Below are positions 39,230 through 54,164 of a stretch of 64,000 bases of DNA, piece by piece. The translations under genes were made by a program, and so were the position numbers. The notes beneath the pieces were generated by a model, which made no database searches, was not told the DNA's origin, and saw only the letters and a list, made by a program, of their open reading frames with translations. Location of the stretch: positions 62,001 through 126,000 of the forward strand of contig NZ_JAGGMO010000001.1 in NCBI RefSeq assembly GCF_017875395.1. Direction: 5' to 3'. The DNA comes from Methanococcus voltae. Lineage in GTDB: Archaea; AGJL01; Methanococci; Methanococcales; Methanococcaceae. The number at the start of each line of letters is the position of its first letter. The stretch's first letter is position 1.

Positions 39230-40090
39230 TTATTCAATTAATAAAGCACCATAACCAACTACGGAAGTATAGTCTTTGGATATGTCTCCGGAAGTCATGT
39301 AATTTAATAAATCAGCGTTTTTAGCACCTGACAATTTTAAAATGTGTAACATAGTAATTACTTGTCCAAAACCGCACATACTTATGTTATTATCCATTAC
39401 TGTGTCATAAAGCGCTTTTTCATCTAGTTCTAAGATATTTTTGATTACTTTTGCATCTTTTTTTATGGTTGTTTCTTGTGGCTCGTAGTGTGAAAAATCA
39501 GTAGATGCAATCACGACAATATTTTTATTTAGTTTTTTTGCAACATTATGTATATAGTCGCCCATCTCAATATACTCTTCATATTCCATACCTTGGCAAC
39601 ATATTGGGACTATTTTAAACTGCGAAATACCCAACAATTCCAAATGTTTTAGGAAAGGTAATTGAACCTCTGTCGAATGCTCTTGTAGGTGTGCAATATC
39701 ATCAAGTTCAAATAAACCGTGTGTTATTAGCTCACTTATGAAGTCCAAATCTGGCGTTATATTGCCCAATGGGGTTTCCCATATTTCATTGGAAATTGCT
39801 ACCCTTGCACCCATACCCGTATGGTTAGGAGATAATATGACAATAGTTGTTTCGCCACTCAATCTCTTTGAAAGTTCATAATACGAATAGCTTGCAGTAA
39901 TTCCCGAATATTCATAACCTGCGTGTGGACATATTAAACCGATTGAATTCTTTAAATTCTTTTCTGAATTAATTTTTAAAGGCAATTCACCTATCCCTAG
40001 GGGATTTGTATAAAAATACTCTATTATATTAATTAATTCATTGACATCTCCAGGATAAAAAATATCTTTTACGATCGGGGTTCTTGACAT
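39230..40090 (-). CDS. Memo-like protein (AmmeMemoRadiSam system protein B)
   Basis: Member of the MEMO1 family, related to class III extradiol dioxygenases. The 286 residues include FYPGDVNELINIIE, the CPHAGYEYSGITASYSYYEL His site, ILSPNHTG, HSTEVQLPFLKHL, VPICCQGME and STDFSHYEP, with the expected metal-binding His residues. GGTGTTGGT precedes the ATG. The usual partners, an AMMECR1 domain protein and a radical SAM enzyme, are not adjacent. Function in archaea is unsettled. Confidence 0.9.
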   Translation of the reverse strand: MSRTPIVKDIFYPGDVNELINIIEYFYTNPLGIGELPLKINSEKNLKNSIGLICPHAGYEYSGITASYSYYELSKRLSGETTIVILSPNHTGMGARVAISNEIWETPLGNITPDLDFISELITHGLFELDDIAHLQEHSTEVQLPFLKHLELLGISQFKIVPICCQGMEYEEYIEMGDYIHNVAKKLNKNIVVIASTDFSHYEPQETTIKKDAKVIKNILELDEKALYDTVMDNNISMCGFGQVITMLHILKLSGAKNADLLNYMTSGDISKDYTSVVGYGALLIE

Positions 40091-41003: not shown

Positions 41004-41852
41004 TTAGTAAGGCAATGGTAATCCTATTTCTTTTCTATGTGCTCTTTCCTTACCGTTGTTTTCCTTTTTAGAATTAGCTAATTTTTCAACTAATCCTAAT
41101 CCTGGTTTCACATCGTCAATATTCTTTATTTCTATAACGCCAGCTTCTTCCATAGCTTTATAGAATGCTTCACCTTTTGCGGTTCTAATGAATATAGTGC
41201 TCCAACCGTCTGGGCTACCAACTGAACCTGTTGAGATATCTGCAAGTTCTGCAGTATAGTCCATACATACGTGGCATGCGTGTTGCTCGTATGGGTGTGT
41301 GTCTTTTAACTTAATAGTTTTTACATCGCCCCATTTTGAATATACCCAGAATTTACCTTTTCCGATATCGGTTTTTGCGACATCTTCCATTTTGATTCCA
41401 CAGTGTTCTTCAATTATGGTTTTTAAACCATTGTATGGGAAGTTTTCCATACAGAAGATACCCATTACTAAAGCAATTTTATCAGGTACGTGTCTGTAAC
41501 CTATAGGGTACTTTAGCATTTTTCTGATTGATTGCACTTGGCAAGGAGTACCTACGAATCCTACCTTATCGCAACCGTATTCTCTTACAGCACTTTTTAA
41601 GACTGATAAGTTTGGTGAAGTTGTATATTTTGTACCTGCTGCACTTAAAACTTCGTCAACAGTTGTAGCCACCTTAGGTATTGCACAGAAATCTTCACCT
41701 TTATCTGCGACAATTACCCCATCAAGTAATCCACTTTCTAAACCGTGTATGTAAGCTGCTGATACAATACCACCGTCTTGTGATTTTTTACGGATTTGAT
41801 TATCAGTAGCTCTTGCGGATATAGCAAACTTGTATGAGCCGAATGGGTCCAT
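41004..41852 (-). CDS. fruB: F420-reducing hydrogenase, beta subunit
   Basis: FAD- and F420-binding subunit that passes electrons from the NiFe centre to coenzyme F420. The 282 residues are FrhB-like: [25 protein letters not shown] near the start, the [15 protein letters not shown] segment, [11 protein letters not shown] and [26 protein letters not shown], with cysteines for one 4Fe-4S cluster. AGAGGTGATTGG precedes the ATG. It is the last gene of the leftward A-D-G-B cluster. Confidence 0.94.
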
Positions 41853-41965: not shown

Positions 41966-42652
41966 TTACTCTATTTTTTCAATTAATTCAGGGAATCTTA
42001 TTCTTGGACACTGTACGCTACAAGCACCGCATTTTATACAAATTTCTTTGTCAATTGCAGGTCTTCCGCACTCCATTGATACAGCTCTTGTTGGACAAGC
42101 TGCTGCACAGGCTCCACATCCCATACATAATGATTTGTTAATTACTTTAACGATTAAATCGCATCCGCAAGCTTCACTACCATATTTAGCGAGTTCCGCA
42201 TATGGTTCTAAGTAATCCATATCTCCTTCGAGTGCAGCGGTTATAACAGCCACTATTGACTCAGGTGATGGTGGACATCCTGGTATTGCGAGGTCACATT
42301 TTACAACTTCAGTTAACGGAGCAAATGCGTCATGTACTGGTTTTGACATTTGTCCGCCTCTTGAAAATCTTGTAATGTTTCCACTTGCAGCACATGCGCC
42401 TAATGCCACAAGTATTTTAGCTTTTTCTCTACAAGCGAGTGCAGTTTCTAATGCGTGGTGGTCGCTTAAGCATACGCTACCTTCCAATAAGATAATATCT
42501 ACATCATCAGGTACTTCCTTAACATCTGCTAAAGTTTGTGAATATACTAAGTCAATAGCACCTAATACATCCAATAACTTCTCATATGTGTCGGCAAGGG
42601 ATACTAAGCATCCACAGCAACTGCTTAATTGTACGTGGGCAACTTTAACCAT
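41966..42652 (-). CDS. fruG: F420-reducing hydrogenase, gamma (small) subunit
   Basis: Electron-relay subunit with three 4Fe-4S clusters. From the ATG behind GGGAGGAAATACA (the open frame begins 16 codons earlier) it has 228 residues. The proximal cluster site is [15 protein letters not shown] with GACAASGN and [10 protein letters not shown]. The C-terminal ferredoxin part has [15 protein letters not shown] and [13 protein letters not shown]. fruB starts 113 bp downstream and fruD lies 330 bp upstream, so it may have its own promoter or processing site. Confidence 0.94.
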
Positions 42653-42982
42653 TGTATTTCCTCCCTCATCATTTTGATAAGTTATTAAGACAAATAACAA
42701 TTTGGCCTTAATTTTTAATAAACGGTGAATTTAGCAAATTCATAATTGCTAAATTTAATAGTAATACAACATATTGTTAGAATAAATATGATAATTAATG
42801 TCAATATCATTTAATATCGATATCATCTTATTCTTAAATTTTAAATCAATTAGTCACGTTAATGATTAAAAATCCATAAATATTTTTATTAATCTCAATC
42901 AATAGTAATCAATTATTGATTAATCATAATAATTCAATTCCCATTATTTTTTTACTTAACTTTAATTATAGTATGGATGTAT
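42653..42982. other. 330-bp spacer between fruD and fruG
   Basis: Unusually long gap inside the hydrogenase cluster with no ORF. It holds an inverted repeat at 42728-42755 and several ATATCATTTAATATCGATATCAT-like short dyads near 42800-42822. It may carry a terminator, an internal promoter or an RNA-processing site that adjusts the level of fruG and fruB. Confidence 0.55.
42728..42755. promoter_or_regulatory. Inverted repeat upstream of fruG
   Basis: AATTTAGCAA and TTGCTAAATT form perfect 10-bp arms around an 8-base loop. The site is about 76 bp upstream of the fruG start. It could act as an operator, or as a hairpin in the fru transcript. Confidence 0.5.
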
Positions 42983-43504
42983 CTAATTCCCCCTTATGTC
43001 AGATAATATGATGTTTACAGCATCATCAACAGCATTTTCCACTTCTTCACACAATTCCAATACAACGTCAGGTTCTGAAACGTATTTTGCTTGACAACCG
43101 ATAACTTTGTATTTTATGTTGTTTTCTGTGCAAATTCTGTTTAATGTGGTGGATAATGGCCAATCATGACTATCTACTTTAGTGTGTTCGGGATTAGGAA
43201 GGTTTTCCTTTGTAAGTATCTCAATAGTGCCAGGTTCAAGCCCATAATCAATAACATCTACAACAGTTATATTCTTAACTTTAGAACTTTCGTCAATTAA
43301 AGTAAGTACCTGTTGAGGTGCCCCCGCCCCAGCATCTACAAGTGCTATGTGTTCCTTTTCCTCATCAGTTAACAAATCTTGTAATTTTTCGATAACGTGA
43401 ACACTAAATCCATCGTCAGCAAAAAGGATATTTCCACAAGCTAATATCAGAGTTTCTTTTAACAAATATGATGGGGTTAAGTCAAATTCTTGTTCATTGC
43501 TCAT
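42983..43504 (-). CDS. fruD: Hydrogenase maturation endopeptidase of the fru cluster
   Basis: Ni-dependent protease that trims the C-terminus of the large subunit after NiFe insertion. The 173 residues (ATG behind AGGATGTATATT; the frame opens three codons earlier) have [20 protein letters not shown] at the N-terminus, [12 protein letters not shown], the [15 protein letters not shown] segment and the [10 protein letters not shown] His. Asp/Glu/His for nickel recognition are in place. It sits between fruA and fruG, the expected place, and its substrate is the 17-residue tail of FruA. Confidence 0.92.
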
Positions 43505-43640
43505 AATATACATCCTATATTAATTAATATTAGTAATATTTGTAATATTAATTATGTTGAATTAATTATGTTATTTATTAAATTTAAATAGCCTATTATG
43601 AATAAATCACATAGTACAGTTTATCTAATTAATTTTATTA

Positions 43641-43670
43641 TATTATAAGTCCTTTCGGTTCCTTATAATA
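43641..43670 (-). promoter_or_regulatory. SECIS element of fruA
   Basis: On the minus strand a 9-bp stem (TATTATAAG with CTTATAATA) closes an internal loop with GAA on one side and A on the other, then a CC/GG clamp and a GAAA apical loop. The GAA/A internal bulge is the mark of archaeal selenocysteine insertion elements, which lie in the 3' untranslated region. It begins one base after the fruA TAA stop at 43672-43674. Confidence 0.88.
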
Positions 43671-43671
43671 C

Positions 43672-44907
43672 TTAAAATCTTCTTAAATCTACTACTTTTC
43701 TTGTCTGTTCATCTTTCACGATGATGTGCGTTGCACATGAAGCTCATATATCGTATGCTCTCATGATTACTTCCGCATATTTGTGGTGGTACCCTTCAAT
43801 AGCCTTTTCAACTACTGGCATGTTCCATGTTGAAGCTGCGATGATTCTGTAGTTTTTAATTCTACCATCTGCGCCCACTTCTGCCATGTGTGTGTTTGTA
43901 GCTCTTGGAGCTTCGTGTACACCTACACCGAATCCATCTTTGTATTCTGGTGTAATTTTAGTAGCACCTTCAATGTTTAAGTCATCGAGTAATTGTAATG
44001 ACCTTTCAACAGCACCTAAGTTTTCTAATGCTCTTGCAAGGTTAAGATCCATTACGCCACCGTCTGTTCTGAATGAACCAAATTTAACCATTCTTGCTCT
44101 TGGTCCGCCCTCTGCAGGACTTCCCAAGTATAATGGAATTTGATTTGTTGCGGTTTGAGCGATTTCTGGATAATTAGCATAATAATTTTGAGCGGTTAAT
44201 TCAGAAATATCATCTAAATCTAATTTAGTTCTGTCACCGAATGTTGTATCGGTTGCAATGTATGGTAAATCGTGCTTTCCTAAATCAGGGATTCCGATTT
44301 CATCCAAATATCTTTCTGTCAACATTTCGATAATGTCGTACATTTGTCTTGCATCTTTTTGGTATTCTTTGCAAGCGTAGTATAATTTTGCCTTAGCTCT
44401 TTCGGAGATATTATTTCTCATACCACCAATTACTAAGTTAGGTGGGTGGATACCTTCTCCCCCAACGGTATCTACGATTAATTGACCCTCTTTTCTCATT
44501 TTTTGAATCAATTTAATACCGTCTATTCTTAAGGTATCTGCCTCTTCAGGTTTTAACAAATCATCCACAATTAACAAATGATGTAATGGGTGTGAATGCA
44601 TTCTGTTGCCTAAACCTAAGAGTTCTCTTAATATTGTACCATCTTGCGGAATTTCCGCGCCGATAGCGTTTTCGATAGCTTCACATGATGCTATACCGTG
44701 TGTAGCCTGACATATTCCACATATTCTCATAACTGCAATAGGTCCAAATGCTGCAGGCTTTCCTTGAAGCATTGTTTCAAATCCTCTCACAGGAGTGGTA
44801 TTTGGATAAAATGCTTTGGTTACAATTCCGTCATCGTCCACATTTAAAACGAGTTTGGCGTGCCCCTCATGTCTTGTTGTAGGAGCAATTGTTATAGGTT
44901 CTGCCAC
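43672..44907 (-). CDS. fruA: F420-reducing selenohydrogenase, alpha (large) subunit, with selenocysteine
   Basis: NiFe(Se) large subunit that oxidises H2. The N-terminal metal motif RICGICQATHG is present. The apparent stop, TGA at 43744-43746, falls where the first Cys of the C-terminal DPCxxCxxH motif should be; read as selenocysteine (residue 388) the chain continues I-U-A-S-C-A-T-H, then a 17-residue tail ending in TAA. The total is 411 residues. A SECIS hairpin follows. The start used here is the GTG at 44905-44907, five bases after a strong GGAGGTGA; the GTG at 44914 overlaps that site and is unlikely. FruD would remove the tail after the His. Expression should depend on selenium supply. 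Confidence 0.93.
43744..43746 (-). other. UGA selenocysteine codon in fruA
   Basis: In-frame TGA on the minus strand. It is flanked by codons for Asp-Ile before and Ala-Ser-Cys-Ala-Thr-His after, which is the NiFe ligand motif with Sec in place of the first Cys. Confidence 0.9.
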
Positions 44908-44958
44908 AATGGTCACCTCCGAGGTAATCTACATATAACGAATTATGTTTCTATTAGG

Positions 44959-45343: not shown

Positions 45344-47452
45344 TTATAATTTCCAAGATATACCAAGTAATTCACTATATTTATCTAAAACTCTTGATAT
45401 ATATTCGTCTAAAGCTTTATCGCCATCTTCTTCAAATTTTTTAGCCCATTTTTCATTTTCAAAGTCTTTTGCGCCACAAGCTATTAATTCTTTTACCCTG
45501 TGACTTTCTATAACATGAGGATAGCCCACTTTTAAATCATAATTATAGATTTTTTCAAGTAATTTTAAACTAACTTCGTGCAAATTATTTGACAAATAGT
45601 AGTTAACTCCATTAAATTCATTTAATTCATTTAATTCGTCTGATTTTTCCATATCTATTTTTTCTTCATCTTTGAACACTTCTGCTAGTAATTCATCTAA
45701 AACTGGCAATATCCATTTTCTATGGAATCGGCAAATGCCTAAGTTTTCAAGAGTTATCTCTTCAGTTGCACCTTTAACACTTAAAGTAGCTAACTCTTCA
45801 GGCTCTAAAAATACCCCATTTTGATAATACGTAAGATATTTCCCCTGGATTAAATAAGGGATATAGTTACCTATTGCCCAATACATAGTTGGAGATATTT
45901 GCCCATTGTGTCCAAATGCCACATATACTGCAAAATCATTGAAATTTAAAGGTTCTTGACTTTCTATACAGTTTGATTTATATTTTCTGAACTTTTCAAC
46001 TTTTGCGTTGCAATCTGAAGTATTTAATTCATGCAATCTTTCCTTATAAATTTCATTTAATTCTTTTCCGGCATATCTTGTATCTTTTCTCAATAATGGG
46101 ATTAATTGCTCAATTTTCTCATAGTCTAGATTTTCTAAATTTATTTGCTTTGATTGAATTAATTCTTTGGTATTTTCATTTAAACCATAAACAATTAAAT
46201 TTGCAAGAATTATTGCCTGCTCTGCATTGTGGTTTGAACATTTTAAGATATTTTCGTCAGTATCGTAATCTTCGACATCAAAATAAGGCATTTTGATACC
46301 CACTTCTTCAGGCTTTAAAAGTTCCACGTTTAAAAGTTCAAAAACCCATGCGCACAAGTTTCCGAACTCGATTGCATCCATTCCTAAACTATCTACGGCG
46401 TGAACCACTTTATCAACTGCGTATATGTCAAAAATACCTAAACAAGGACCATTAGCTTCATAAGGTTCATAATCTACGTGCATTCCTTTTCTATATTTTT
46501 TACAGGCTACAGGACAAGGTTCTCCACAATTTGTCCAATTTTTAGGTATTATAGATTCTTCGTCAAATTGAGCTACAAAATACTTCAAAATTTTGTCATG
46601 GAAATACAAACGGTCATCTTTTTCTATAAATGGAGTTCTCCAATTAAATATTGGCGTTAAATCCATTGCAGTTTTGTAATTATTTCCAAAAGTCCCACCT
46701 GTTTCAGTTTTTTTGCTGTACCGGTATTTTTCAGTATTTGAAAGTACTGCCTCGATATAAGGCTTATTGTGGCACGTTTCTACTATTTTTTTAAGTTTTA
46801 ACTCTTTTTCAATATCTTTTTTATAGTTATCTCCGAAAAATACGACCCCTATGACATTGTGGCATTGGTATAATGCTGAACCGCAACCACCCCTTGCTGC
46901 CCAGTCTTCAGAACCTTCTACGATTATACCATTTTTTATAGTTTGAGAATATATCCCCGCCATATCTGTGGTTATTGCACTTGGCCCCACCATAAAAGCT
47001 CTAAAATTCTCATCAATCTGTTTATATTGATCTATTAAATAATCGTTTAATTCATAAACACTTTTAAACCTTCCCTGTTCAAATTCCTCAAGTTCTTTAA
47101 ACTCTAAGCTAAAATTACCGTTTCCATTTAAAATTATTAGACTTGGTTTTTCACATCTTCCTTTAATTGCGATGTTGTCCAATCCAGTATTTTGGAGAGT
47201 ATAGCCTGCTCCCCCCATTGCTGAAAAATGGAAACCTTTCCATAACGGTGATCTAAAGGAAAATATTAACCTATGACCCCCAATAATCGGCAATACACCT
47301 TTTCCAACACAAAATATATTTTTATCACTATATACGTCTTCTTTGTAAGTTTCATAATCATCATGGAGTTTCATACCCCAATCTAATGGTAAATATGTGC
47401 CTACTACTGTTTCGTAGGTTTTTGATGACGCATCGATTATTATATTTCTCAT
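45344..47452 (-). CDS. Aldehyde:ferredoxin oxidoreductase (tungsten-type)
   Basis: Oxidises aldehydes to acids with ferredoxin as acceptor, using a tungstopterin and a 4Fe-4S cluster. The 702 residues include GAGYTLQNTGLDNIAIKGR, the pterin-binding AARGGCGSALY region, and the cluster motif NCGEPCPVACKKYR (about 305-318). DSLGMDAIEFGNLCAW near 355 is the family's second pterin segment, and GICRFHRKWI near 570 lies near the expected last Cys. GGGGATACA precedes the ATG. It is divergent from a winged-helix regulator. Confidence 0.9.
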   Translation of the reverse strand: MRNIIIDASSKTYETVVGTYLPLDWGMKLHDDYETYKEDVYSDKNIFCVGKGVLPIIGGHRLIFSFRSPLWKGFHFSAMGGAGYTLQNTGLDNIAIKGRCEKPSLIILNGNGNFSLEFKELEEFEQGRFKSVYELNDYLIDQYKQIDENFRAFMVGPSAITTDMAGIYSQTIKNGIIVEGSEDWAARGGCGSALYQCHNVIGVVFFGDNYKKDIEKELKLKKIVETCHNKPYIEAVLSNTEKYRYSKKTETGGTFGNNYKTAMDLTPIFNWRTPFIEKDDRLYFHDKILKYFVAQFDEESIIPKNWTNCGEPCPVACKKYRKGMHVDYEPYEANGPCLGIFDIYAVDKVVHAVDSLGMDAIEFGNLCAWVFELLNVELLKPEEVGIKMPYFDVEDYDTDENILKCSNHNAEQAIILANLIVYGLNENTKELIQSKQINLENLDYEKIEQLIPLLRKDTRYAGKELNEIYKERLHELNTSDCNAKVEKFRKYKSNCIESQEPLNFNDFAVYVAFGHNGQISPTMYWAIGNYIPYLIQGKYLTYYQNGVFLEPEELATLSVKGATEEITLENLGICRFHRKWILPVLDELLAEVFKDEEKIDMEKSDELNELNEFNGVNYYLSNNLHEVSLKLLEKIYNYDLKVGYPHVIESHRVKELIACGAKDFENEKWAKKFEEDGDKALDEYISRVLDKYSELLGISWKL

Positions 47453-52046: not shown

Positions 52047-54164
52047 TTATTGAATGTCAAAAACTAAAGGTATTAATTCATCCAATGTTTTAACAGGGAT
52101 TACTTCGATACCCTCAATGTTAATGACGTCTTTGTAATTTGAGTAAGGTACAATTACTCTTTTAAACTGGTATTCTTTTGCAGCATTTATTTTTTCGTTT
52201 ACTCCACCAATAGCTAACATATCGCCGTTTAAATCTAAACTTCCTGTTATACAGAAGTCTTGCTTTATAGGGATATTCAATAATGATGAAATAATGCTTA
52301 AACATACGGCAGCTGTTGCAGAGTCACCATCTATTTTTGAGTAAGACTGGCTAAATTGGATGTAGATTTCTTTTTCAGATAAATCTGTTCCGCCGTCTTT
52401 TCCTTTCAATGGTAAGGTACCATCTGAAACTAATTTCTTGGACAAAGCTGATGCTAATGTTATGCTGTGCTTTGCAATATCTCCCGTTATATTAAGAAGA
52501 CTTGTTTTAGGGTTTTTGGCATTTAATACCTTTGTTATAATTCTTGTAACATCCCCTAATCCTTCACCGCCGAGAACTGCTAAACCGTGAATTACACCAA
52601 CTGTAGGTTCACCATTAGGGTGTATATTCTTATATTCTTTGAAGTTTTCGAGGTAATCCATTGCAACTTGCTTTTGCATACTGTATATACCCGTGTCAAG
52701 AACTCTTTTAACATCCGATAACTCGATAGGTTTTTTATCTTTTAATTTACCTTCTGCTGCATTCAAATCAGATATTCTTGCTTTTAATTCAATTCTTAAT
52801 TCATCTACACTTTTATTAGATTTTTTAGTAGATTTAGATGCTTTGCCCGTTATTTTATTAACTACATTCTTAAGTTTTCCAGCTTCCTTATCGCCCTGGC
52901 TTAATTGTTCAATTATTAAATCAGATTCGCCTACATTATCATCTAAATCAAGAGCCCCATTTTTAGTAAACTCTTTTAAACTTTCACTTAATTCCTTACC
53001 TGTAGCAATATCATTTGCCATTTTTATGATATTTGATAACCTTCTAAGTCTTAATGTAAGCTTATTTTTGGAACCAGACAACAATTGCGCTAATTTAACC
53101 AATTCACAGCAAGCTTCATAAGTCATAGGGTTTAAATTATTATTTTTAATTTCCTGAACTATAAATTGTAATAATTTATCCCTATTTTCTGTAGTGTTAT
53201 CCATTTTATTCTTTAAAACTACTTTATAATCAATTCTATCCATTAAAGGAGCTCTTAAGTTTGAAACGTCATCCATGTTACCTGACATTATTAAGGTAAA
53301 GTCACATGGGATAGGGTTTGTTTCTACAGATGCACCACTTGAATTAGGATTTCTACCACTTATCGCGAGTTTTTTATCCTGAATTGCTGTCAATATGTAA
53401 TCCTGAACATCCAAAGGCATTGTTTTAATTTCATCTACGTAAAGTATACCTTTGTGTGCTTCGTGAATAGCACCTAAAATTACCCTTTTATGTGGCGGGG
53501 TTCCAATTGGAGGTTTACCCCCTAAAGGACAGTGTTTTATATCCCCGAGTAATTTTGTAGTGTTGTAAGCACTTGCTCTAACTAATGGTCTTTTTGGGCA
53601 TTCGTATAAAACCATAGGTTTTAAATCTGCAGGGCTTATTGAATTAGGCATTGATGCTTTTGTAGCTCCGAATATTGCAAGGAATAATATAATAAATGCA
53701 ATTAAGGTGCCTACAATGGTTGTAGTTGCCACTATACCCAACATTTGAGTTTCAGGAACTCCTTTTAATAAAAATTGAGTCACCAAAATAAAACCGAGCA
53801 TAATTAATACGAGTGTTAACATGCTAGGTGGCTGTCTCATAACTTTTGGTTTTTCTTCAGGCATGATTCTTTCGATAACGTTGCCTTCTAAAAGTTCAAC
53901 CATTGGTTTTTCAGTGTTCTTTAAATTTGGTTTTGAAATTATGGTGTATGGAGTAAAATGTCCGGAATTTTCCAATAACTCACCAAATGCTTTAACCATC
54001 ATAGATTTACCGACACCGGGGTCTCCTAAAAGTAACGCATGTCTTTTATTTTTAACTGCGTTCAATACGATTTCTACCGCTTCATCCTGTCCGATAACTT
54101 GATTTATTAAATTAGGTGATGGTTCAGGTAAATCATCTGTAGTAGTAAATTTGGTTGAAAACAT
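52047..54164 (-). CDS. lonB: Archaeal membrane-bound Lon protease (LonB)
   Basis: ATP-dependent protease of the cytoplasmic membrane, 705 residues. Walker A GDPGVGKS at 47-54; two membrane helices (about 115-170) inserted in the AAA+ domain, the mark of archaeal LonB; then the MDRIDYKVVL sensor region. The C-terminal protease has the catalytic Ser in GDSATAAV (about 614) and Lys in GGVNEKINAAKE (about 656). AAAGGTGAATTA precedes the ATG. Length is normal for the family, with a Lys-rich linker near 430-450. Confidence 0.96.
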   Translation of the reverse strand: MFSTKFTTTDDLPEPSPNLINQVIGQDEAVEIVLNAVKNKRHALLLGDPGVGKSMMVKAFGELLENSGHFTPYTIISKPNLKNTEKPMVELLEGNVIERIMPEEKPKVMRQPPSMLTLVLIMLGFILVTQFLLKGVPETQMLGIVATTTIVGTLIAFIILFLAIFGATKASMPNSISPADLKPMVLYECPKRPLVRASAYNTTKLLGDIKHCPLGGKPPIGTPPHKRVILGAIHEAHKGILYVDEIKTMPLDVQDYILTAIQDKKLAISGRNPNSSGASVETNPIPCDFTLIMSGNMDDVSNLRAPLMDRIDYKVVLKNKMDNTTENRDKLLQFIVQEIKNNNLNPMTYEACCELVKLAQLLSGSKNKLTLRLRRLSNIIKMANDIATGKELSESLKEFTKNGALDLDDNVGESDLIIEQLSQGDKEAGKLKNVVNKITGKASKSTKKSNKSVDELRIELKARISDLNAAEGKLKDKKPIELSDVKRVLDTGIYSMQKQVAMDYLENFKEYKNIHPNGEPTVGVIHGLAVLGGEGLGDVTRIITKVLNAKNPKTSLLNITGDIAKHSITLASALSKKLVSDGTLPLKGKDGGTDLSEKEIYIQFSQSYSKIDGDSATAAVCLSIISSLLNIPIKQDFCITGSLDLNGDMLAIGGVNEKINAAKEYQFKRVIVPYSNYKDVINIEGIEVIPVKTLDELIPLVFDIQ

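Follow-up and report, generated by a model that had tools for sequence, protein, structure and literature searches.

Does the TGA that falls within a hydrogenase gene in the stretch of the Methanococcus voltae genome analysed here (64,000 nucleotides, hereafter the window) bring that gene to its end, or is it read as selenocysteine (Sec) under the direction of the hairpin that follows the gene, as an earlier note made from the letters alone had proposed? It appears almost certain that UGA388 of fruA is recoded in a SECIS-directed manner, the product being the large subunit of an F420-reducing [NiFeSe] hydrogenase. That this gene carries Sec and a SECIS holds good but is no new result: PMC2933860 cites Halboth and Klein (1992) for the Sec of M. 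voltae FruA and Wilting et al. (1997) for the SECIS of archaea, and the way the fruA SECIS works has been probed by in vivo mutagenesis in M. maripaludis (PMC9622424, PMC11881835). As far as its description goes, the M. voltae FruA of Halboth and Klein is the same gene, with the same Sec codon and the same frc/vhc paralogue set, and the remark that this form of SECIS is established for Methanococcales agrees with the literature (Wilting et al. 1997, via PMC2933860; PMC11881835).

Reading frame and active-site motifs

Direct reading and translation of the minus strand give a frame that opens with a GTG at 44907, closes with a TAA at 43674-43672 and contains only one in-frame TGA, codon 388 (Table 1), past which it continues for 23 codons (ASCATHIIVKDEQTRKVVDLRRF) up to the TAA. 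The position of the TGA (43744-43746) and the 23 further codons had thus been given correctly. The first Ni-binding motif, RICGIC, fits RxCGxC, and the second reads DI-U-ASCATH, of which UASCATH fits (U/C)xxCxxH with the Sec codon coming first; the TGA does sit at the first Cys position of the NiFe motif, as claimed, but the motif itself is DI-U-xxCxxH and not the DPC form that had been named. Translation table 11 closes the frame at the TGA, with the loss of Sec388, Cys391 and His394, so the warning that an annotator halting there would forfeit the active-site residue was justified.

Table 1. Features of the fru locus in window coordinates.
Feature	Position	Strand	Basis
fruB, F420-binding subunit	41004..41852	-	TIGR03289 frhB, 447 bits, above cut-off
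fruG, small iron-sulfur subunit	41966..42655	-	TIGR03294 FrhG, 358 bits, above cut-off
fruD, hydrogenase maturation protease	42983..43513	-	TIGR00130 frhD, 185 bits, above cut-off; PF01750 HycI
Archaeal SECIS hairpin: 10-pair AU-rich basal stem, GAA/A internal loop, two C-G pairs, GAAA loop	43640..43671	-	Folding, descriptor scan, conservation
fruA CDS with its Sec codon (411 residues, from GTG to TAA)	43672..44907	-	Translation and TIGR03295 match
17-residue C-terminal tail, predicted to be removed by the maturation protease after His394	43675..43725	-	By analogy with the maturation of NiFe hydrogenases; neighbouring protease gene
Cys391 and His394 of the C-terminal motif, lost if translation stops at the TGA	43726..43737	-	Translation, orthologues
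TGA read as Sec388, first residue of the C-terminal Ni-binding motif U-ASC-ATH	43744..43746	-	Translation, orthologues, alignments
N-terminal Ni-binding motif, Cys63 and Cys66 of RICGICxxxH	44710..44721	-	Translation; role inferred from NiFe hydrogenases
Shine-Dalgarno-like GGAGGTGA, 5 nt upstream of the fruA GTG	44913..44920	-	Sequence reading

Identity of the protein, its operon and its Cys paralogue

Read through the TGA, the product matches TIGR03295 (frhA) at 595 bits over profile positions 2-408 of 412 (559 bits if cut at the TGA; the curated cut-off is 392.5 bits), as well as PF00374, and it is, to judge from these matches, fruA, the large subunit of an F420-reducing [NiFeSe] hydrogenase; the identity proposed earlier is borne out by the 595-bit match together with the alignment of homologues. 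The fruA-D-G-B operon is intact, and its genes stand in the order published for fruADGB of M. maripaludis (PMC11097638). Also near this operon lie a gene of the MEMO1/AmmeMemoRadiSam system protein B family (39230-40090, minus strand) and, upstream of fruA, a gene for a 702-aa protein of the aldehyde ferredoxin oxidoreductase family (45344-47452, minus strand), whose closest NCBIfam model, archaeal GAPOR, is matched at 590 bits, far below its 1300-bit cut-off.

The same genome encodes, on contig 8, FrcA (RAYDPCVSCATH), the Cys isoform of the F420-reducing hydrogenase, which has its fold and subunit role in common with FruA but carries DPCxSCATH, i.e., Cys rather than Sec in FruA's Sec column, and no TGA; DPC is thus the form of the Cys paralogue, whereas Ile before Sec is that of FruA. 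The closest solved structure (9r51, the F420-reducing hydrogenase of Methanothermococcus thermolithotrophicus; 398 residues aligned) likewise has a Cys where fruA has the TGA, and the Sec of FruA aligns with the Ni-ligand Cys of FrcA/FrhA, the solved F420 hydrogenases among them.

The hairpin behind fruA

The hairpin at 43671-43640 reads GUAUUAUAAG GAA CC GAAA GG A CUUAUAAUAU; it had been placed one base behind the TAA with a GAA/A internal loop, and the loop is indeed present and the element folds, but it starts at the very next base. The folding check that had been proposed for it gave a hairpin of the form described, with a minimum free energy of -12.3 kcal/mol over 51 nt against -3.2 +/- 1.8 for shuffled sequences (z = -5.0), a stability matched by none of the 200 shuffles of that 51-nt fold, and the hairpin is retained in a 261-nt fold. 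Like a methanogen SECIS, it is a stem-loop with GAA opposite A in the untranslated region of a Sec gene; G-C clamps flanking the GAA/A loop are usual in such elements, though not absolute, and NAA is also accepted in place of GAA. Here the apical clamp consists of two C-G pairs and the basal one of a single G-C followed by A-U pairs.

Generic models were of limited help in recognising this element. Rfam 15 held no SECIS family that matched it, in searches with either the gathering threshold or E-values, and a covariance model built from 15 fruA SECIS elements of species other than M. voltae ranked it best in the window at 15.6 bits, hardly above a chance hairpin lacking GAA/A (15.5 bits), and, when run genome-wide (E <= 10), listed the fwuB element and missed the fruA one; because of this poor separation and the genome-wide miss, a structural descriptor was used instead. 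The pattern GTCCN{3,7}GGTTYC was also tried as a SECIS finder, and, as the reversed control gave more matches than the real orientation in most genomes, its matches were taken only as leads. The descriptor yielded one candidate in 1 of 20 shuffled windows and, in the 64-kb window itself, one further equally stable candidate (53502-53515, within a long coding frame), so the hairpin by itself would not settle the SECIS call; its position and conservation do, since it lies directly behind the TGA-containing frame and is conserved across the orthologues, which lifts it above chance.

In M. maripaludis, too, a GAA/A kink-turn-like loop with two apical C-G pairs stands directly behind fruA. Mutagenesis of that SECIS showed that no more than two C-G pairs are needed on the apical side, that weak (U-A) basal pairs leave about 60% of reporter activity (about 40% being lost) and that the only indispensable positions of the GAA in vivo are both of its A residues (PMC11881835); the form seen here is within the limits that this work found to be tolerated.

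Conservation of the TGA and hairpin across Methanococcales

The comparison covered 36 Methanococcales genomes of five genera, a phylum-level search having given only the same 36. Full-length FruA orthologues were found in 35 of them (the remaining genome is 54% complete), and every one of the 35 has the in-frame TGA; the fragmentary genome G009 has a TAA as well in its matched fruA stretch. Sec or Cys therefore does occur in homologues at the motif position (TGA in 35/35 FruA, Cys in FrcA), and the selenoprotein reading proposed earlier is not refuted by them. Thirty loci were read in detail for motif, tail and hairpin: all have the TGA at the same site, preceded by Ile (once by Met), the motif DI/DM-U-ASCA(T/V/A)H with a conserved tail of 23-24 residues and, behind the stop, a GAA/A hairpin (AAA/A once) at 85-108 nt from the UGA. 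Substitutions in the tail relative to the fruA of the window number 134/62/240 at codon positions 1/2/3, the third-position excess being as expected for translated sequence, and the letters of the SECIS stem vary between A-U and G-C from locus to locus with the pairing kept. The basal stem sets the M. voltae subgroup (G000, G019, G020) apart: in it the fruA element has an uninterrupted 10-pair AU-rich helix with a single G-C at the loop, whereas the fruA SECIS of other species has a 3-pair G-C-rich clamp, then a mismatched stretch, then a lower stem, and the M. maripaludis-type loci (L020, L021) show an interrupted basal helix with two G-C pairs.

Might the hairpin nevertheless be a terminator or an mRNA-stability element, the true SECIS lying elsewhere? 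An AU-rich stem located between fruA and fruD, and a descriptor that found one more match by chance in the window, would suit such a reading; it is hard to reconcile with a GAA/A loop and C-G clamp that 30 loci keep at a distance of 85-108 nt from the UGA, or with an operon that goes on downstream with fruDGB, and we consider it very improbable.

Sec-decoding machinery and the proposed mechanism

The genome has a tRNA-Sec with the anticodon TCA, PSTK, SepSecS, an intact aSelB and SelD, the gene of the last itself carrying a TGA; an inner TAA that had seemed to interrupt aSelB turned out to be the gene's own end, and that candidate interruption was rejected. Further Sec genes on contig 1 are hdrA, vhuD (two TGAs), vhuU and fwuB. 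In vhuD (L090:8972-9373) the in-frame TGAs stand at CYQU and AGUKP, with one SECIS, of the AAA/A type, 37 nt behind the stop (L090:9410); the two Sec residues of VhuD are already known. In genome G015, neither vhuA nor tRNA-Sec was found above the cut-off, though a fruA with the TGA is present; these gaps were taken as missing sequence rather than biology, as published work shows both functions in the strain.

That the UGA is read through as some other amino acid (Cys or Trp), with no selenium involved, is about as improbable as a mere terminator: Cys does work at the same site in FrcA and low-level misreading is compatible with the sequence, yet a full Sec pathway is present in the genome, the SECIS lies exactly behind fruA, and reporter work in a congener found UGA reading to depend on both selenium and the SECIS (PMC9622424, PMC11881835). 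The remaining alternative, i.e., a genuine stop in a decayed or truncated fruA whose work is done by FrcA, has the presence of frcA in the same genome in its favour and is the least credible of all, given that the same TGA and a conserved tail are found in 35/35 orthologues and that fruA is otherwise intact, as are its start signal and the operon.

Recoding of UGA388 as Sec thus remains the preferred reading, and the earlier note's selenoprotein proposal is supported by homology, by the alignment of Sec with the Ni-ligand Cys, by the order-wide TGA, by the fold of the hairpin and by the full machinery; the single G-C, followed by A-U pairs, of the basal clamp and the low 15.6-bit model score count against it. 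The reading frame, the motif, the orthology, the conservation of UGA and hairpin and the presence of the machinery were observed here directly. By analogy with relatives (PMC2933860, PMC9622424, PMC11881835) and with what is generally known of NiFe maturation, UGA388 would be decoded by a Sec-tRNA delivered by aSelB and guided by the GAA/A kink-turn-like SECIS in the 3' untranslated spacer ahead of fruD; Sec388, Cys63, Cys66 and Cys391 would ligate the active-site Ni; and FruD would cut off the 17-residue tail behind His394 after Ni insertion. The H2:F420 activity of the enzyme is likewise predicted from published work on relatives.

Sec genes for which no SECIS was recognised

The SECIS scan recognises a single descriptor, so that absence below means "not recognised". 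The in-frame TGA of hdrA (DDCAM-U-ILAPKMVS; L090:7360) is kept in the genome of the window and its two nearest relatives (L095, L096), in all three of which the descriptor scan found no SECIS in the hdrA-vhuD spacer (L090:8751-8972 in the genome of the window); that spacer does hold one in 6/6 other genomes checked. The nearest downstream element to the hdrA TGA in the three genomes is the vhuD SECIS in the next cistron, at 2,051, 2,051 and 2,021 nt, the observed distances being put at 70-1,500 nt in a review (PMC9499178).

TGAs at Sec sites are also found in two fdhA genes and the second fwdB (L117, L118 and L119, at CARLUHSA, CARIUHAP and STIUHGPS), and no convincing GAA/A element was found for these three in the stretches scanned in the genome of the window. 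An in-frame hairpin 78 nt behind one fdhA UGA was tried as a SECIS and set aside, being weak and not the best fold in this genome. The fdhA on contig 5 is without the 5'-UTR SECIS that its relatives have, as reported for M. voltae (PMC11881835). No element was recognised for one fdhA of the M. maripaludis-type genome G016 either, so fdhA genes without a recognised SECIS are not wholly peculiar to the M. voltae group. For selD, a UAA/A SECIS-like hairpin stands 28 nt behind the stop, at +1072 from the TGA (L120; L127 likewise), and is clearly homologous to the GAA/A element that follows selD in other Methanococcus.

It is conceivable, though we put it at somewhat less than an even chance, that some Sec genes of the M. 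voltae group have their UGA decoded although they carry no SECIS themselves: having lost its element, hdrA may use that of vhuD, which would then serve two genes, and the two fdhA genes and the second fwdB lack a recognisable one.

Implications for annotation and for archaeal SECIS function

Standard annotation would truncate fruA and drop three residues of the C-terminal active-site motif, the read-through gene model being the correct one, and the compact AU-rich natural form of its SECIS, largely missed by Rfam 15 and by the model built from other species, is useful for annotation. More surprising than fruA are the Sec genes without a recognisable SECIS, which would bear on the reach and the mode of action of an archaeal SECIS: a vhuD element serving hdrA would, if true, act beyond the reported range of 70-1,500 nt.
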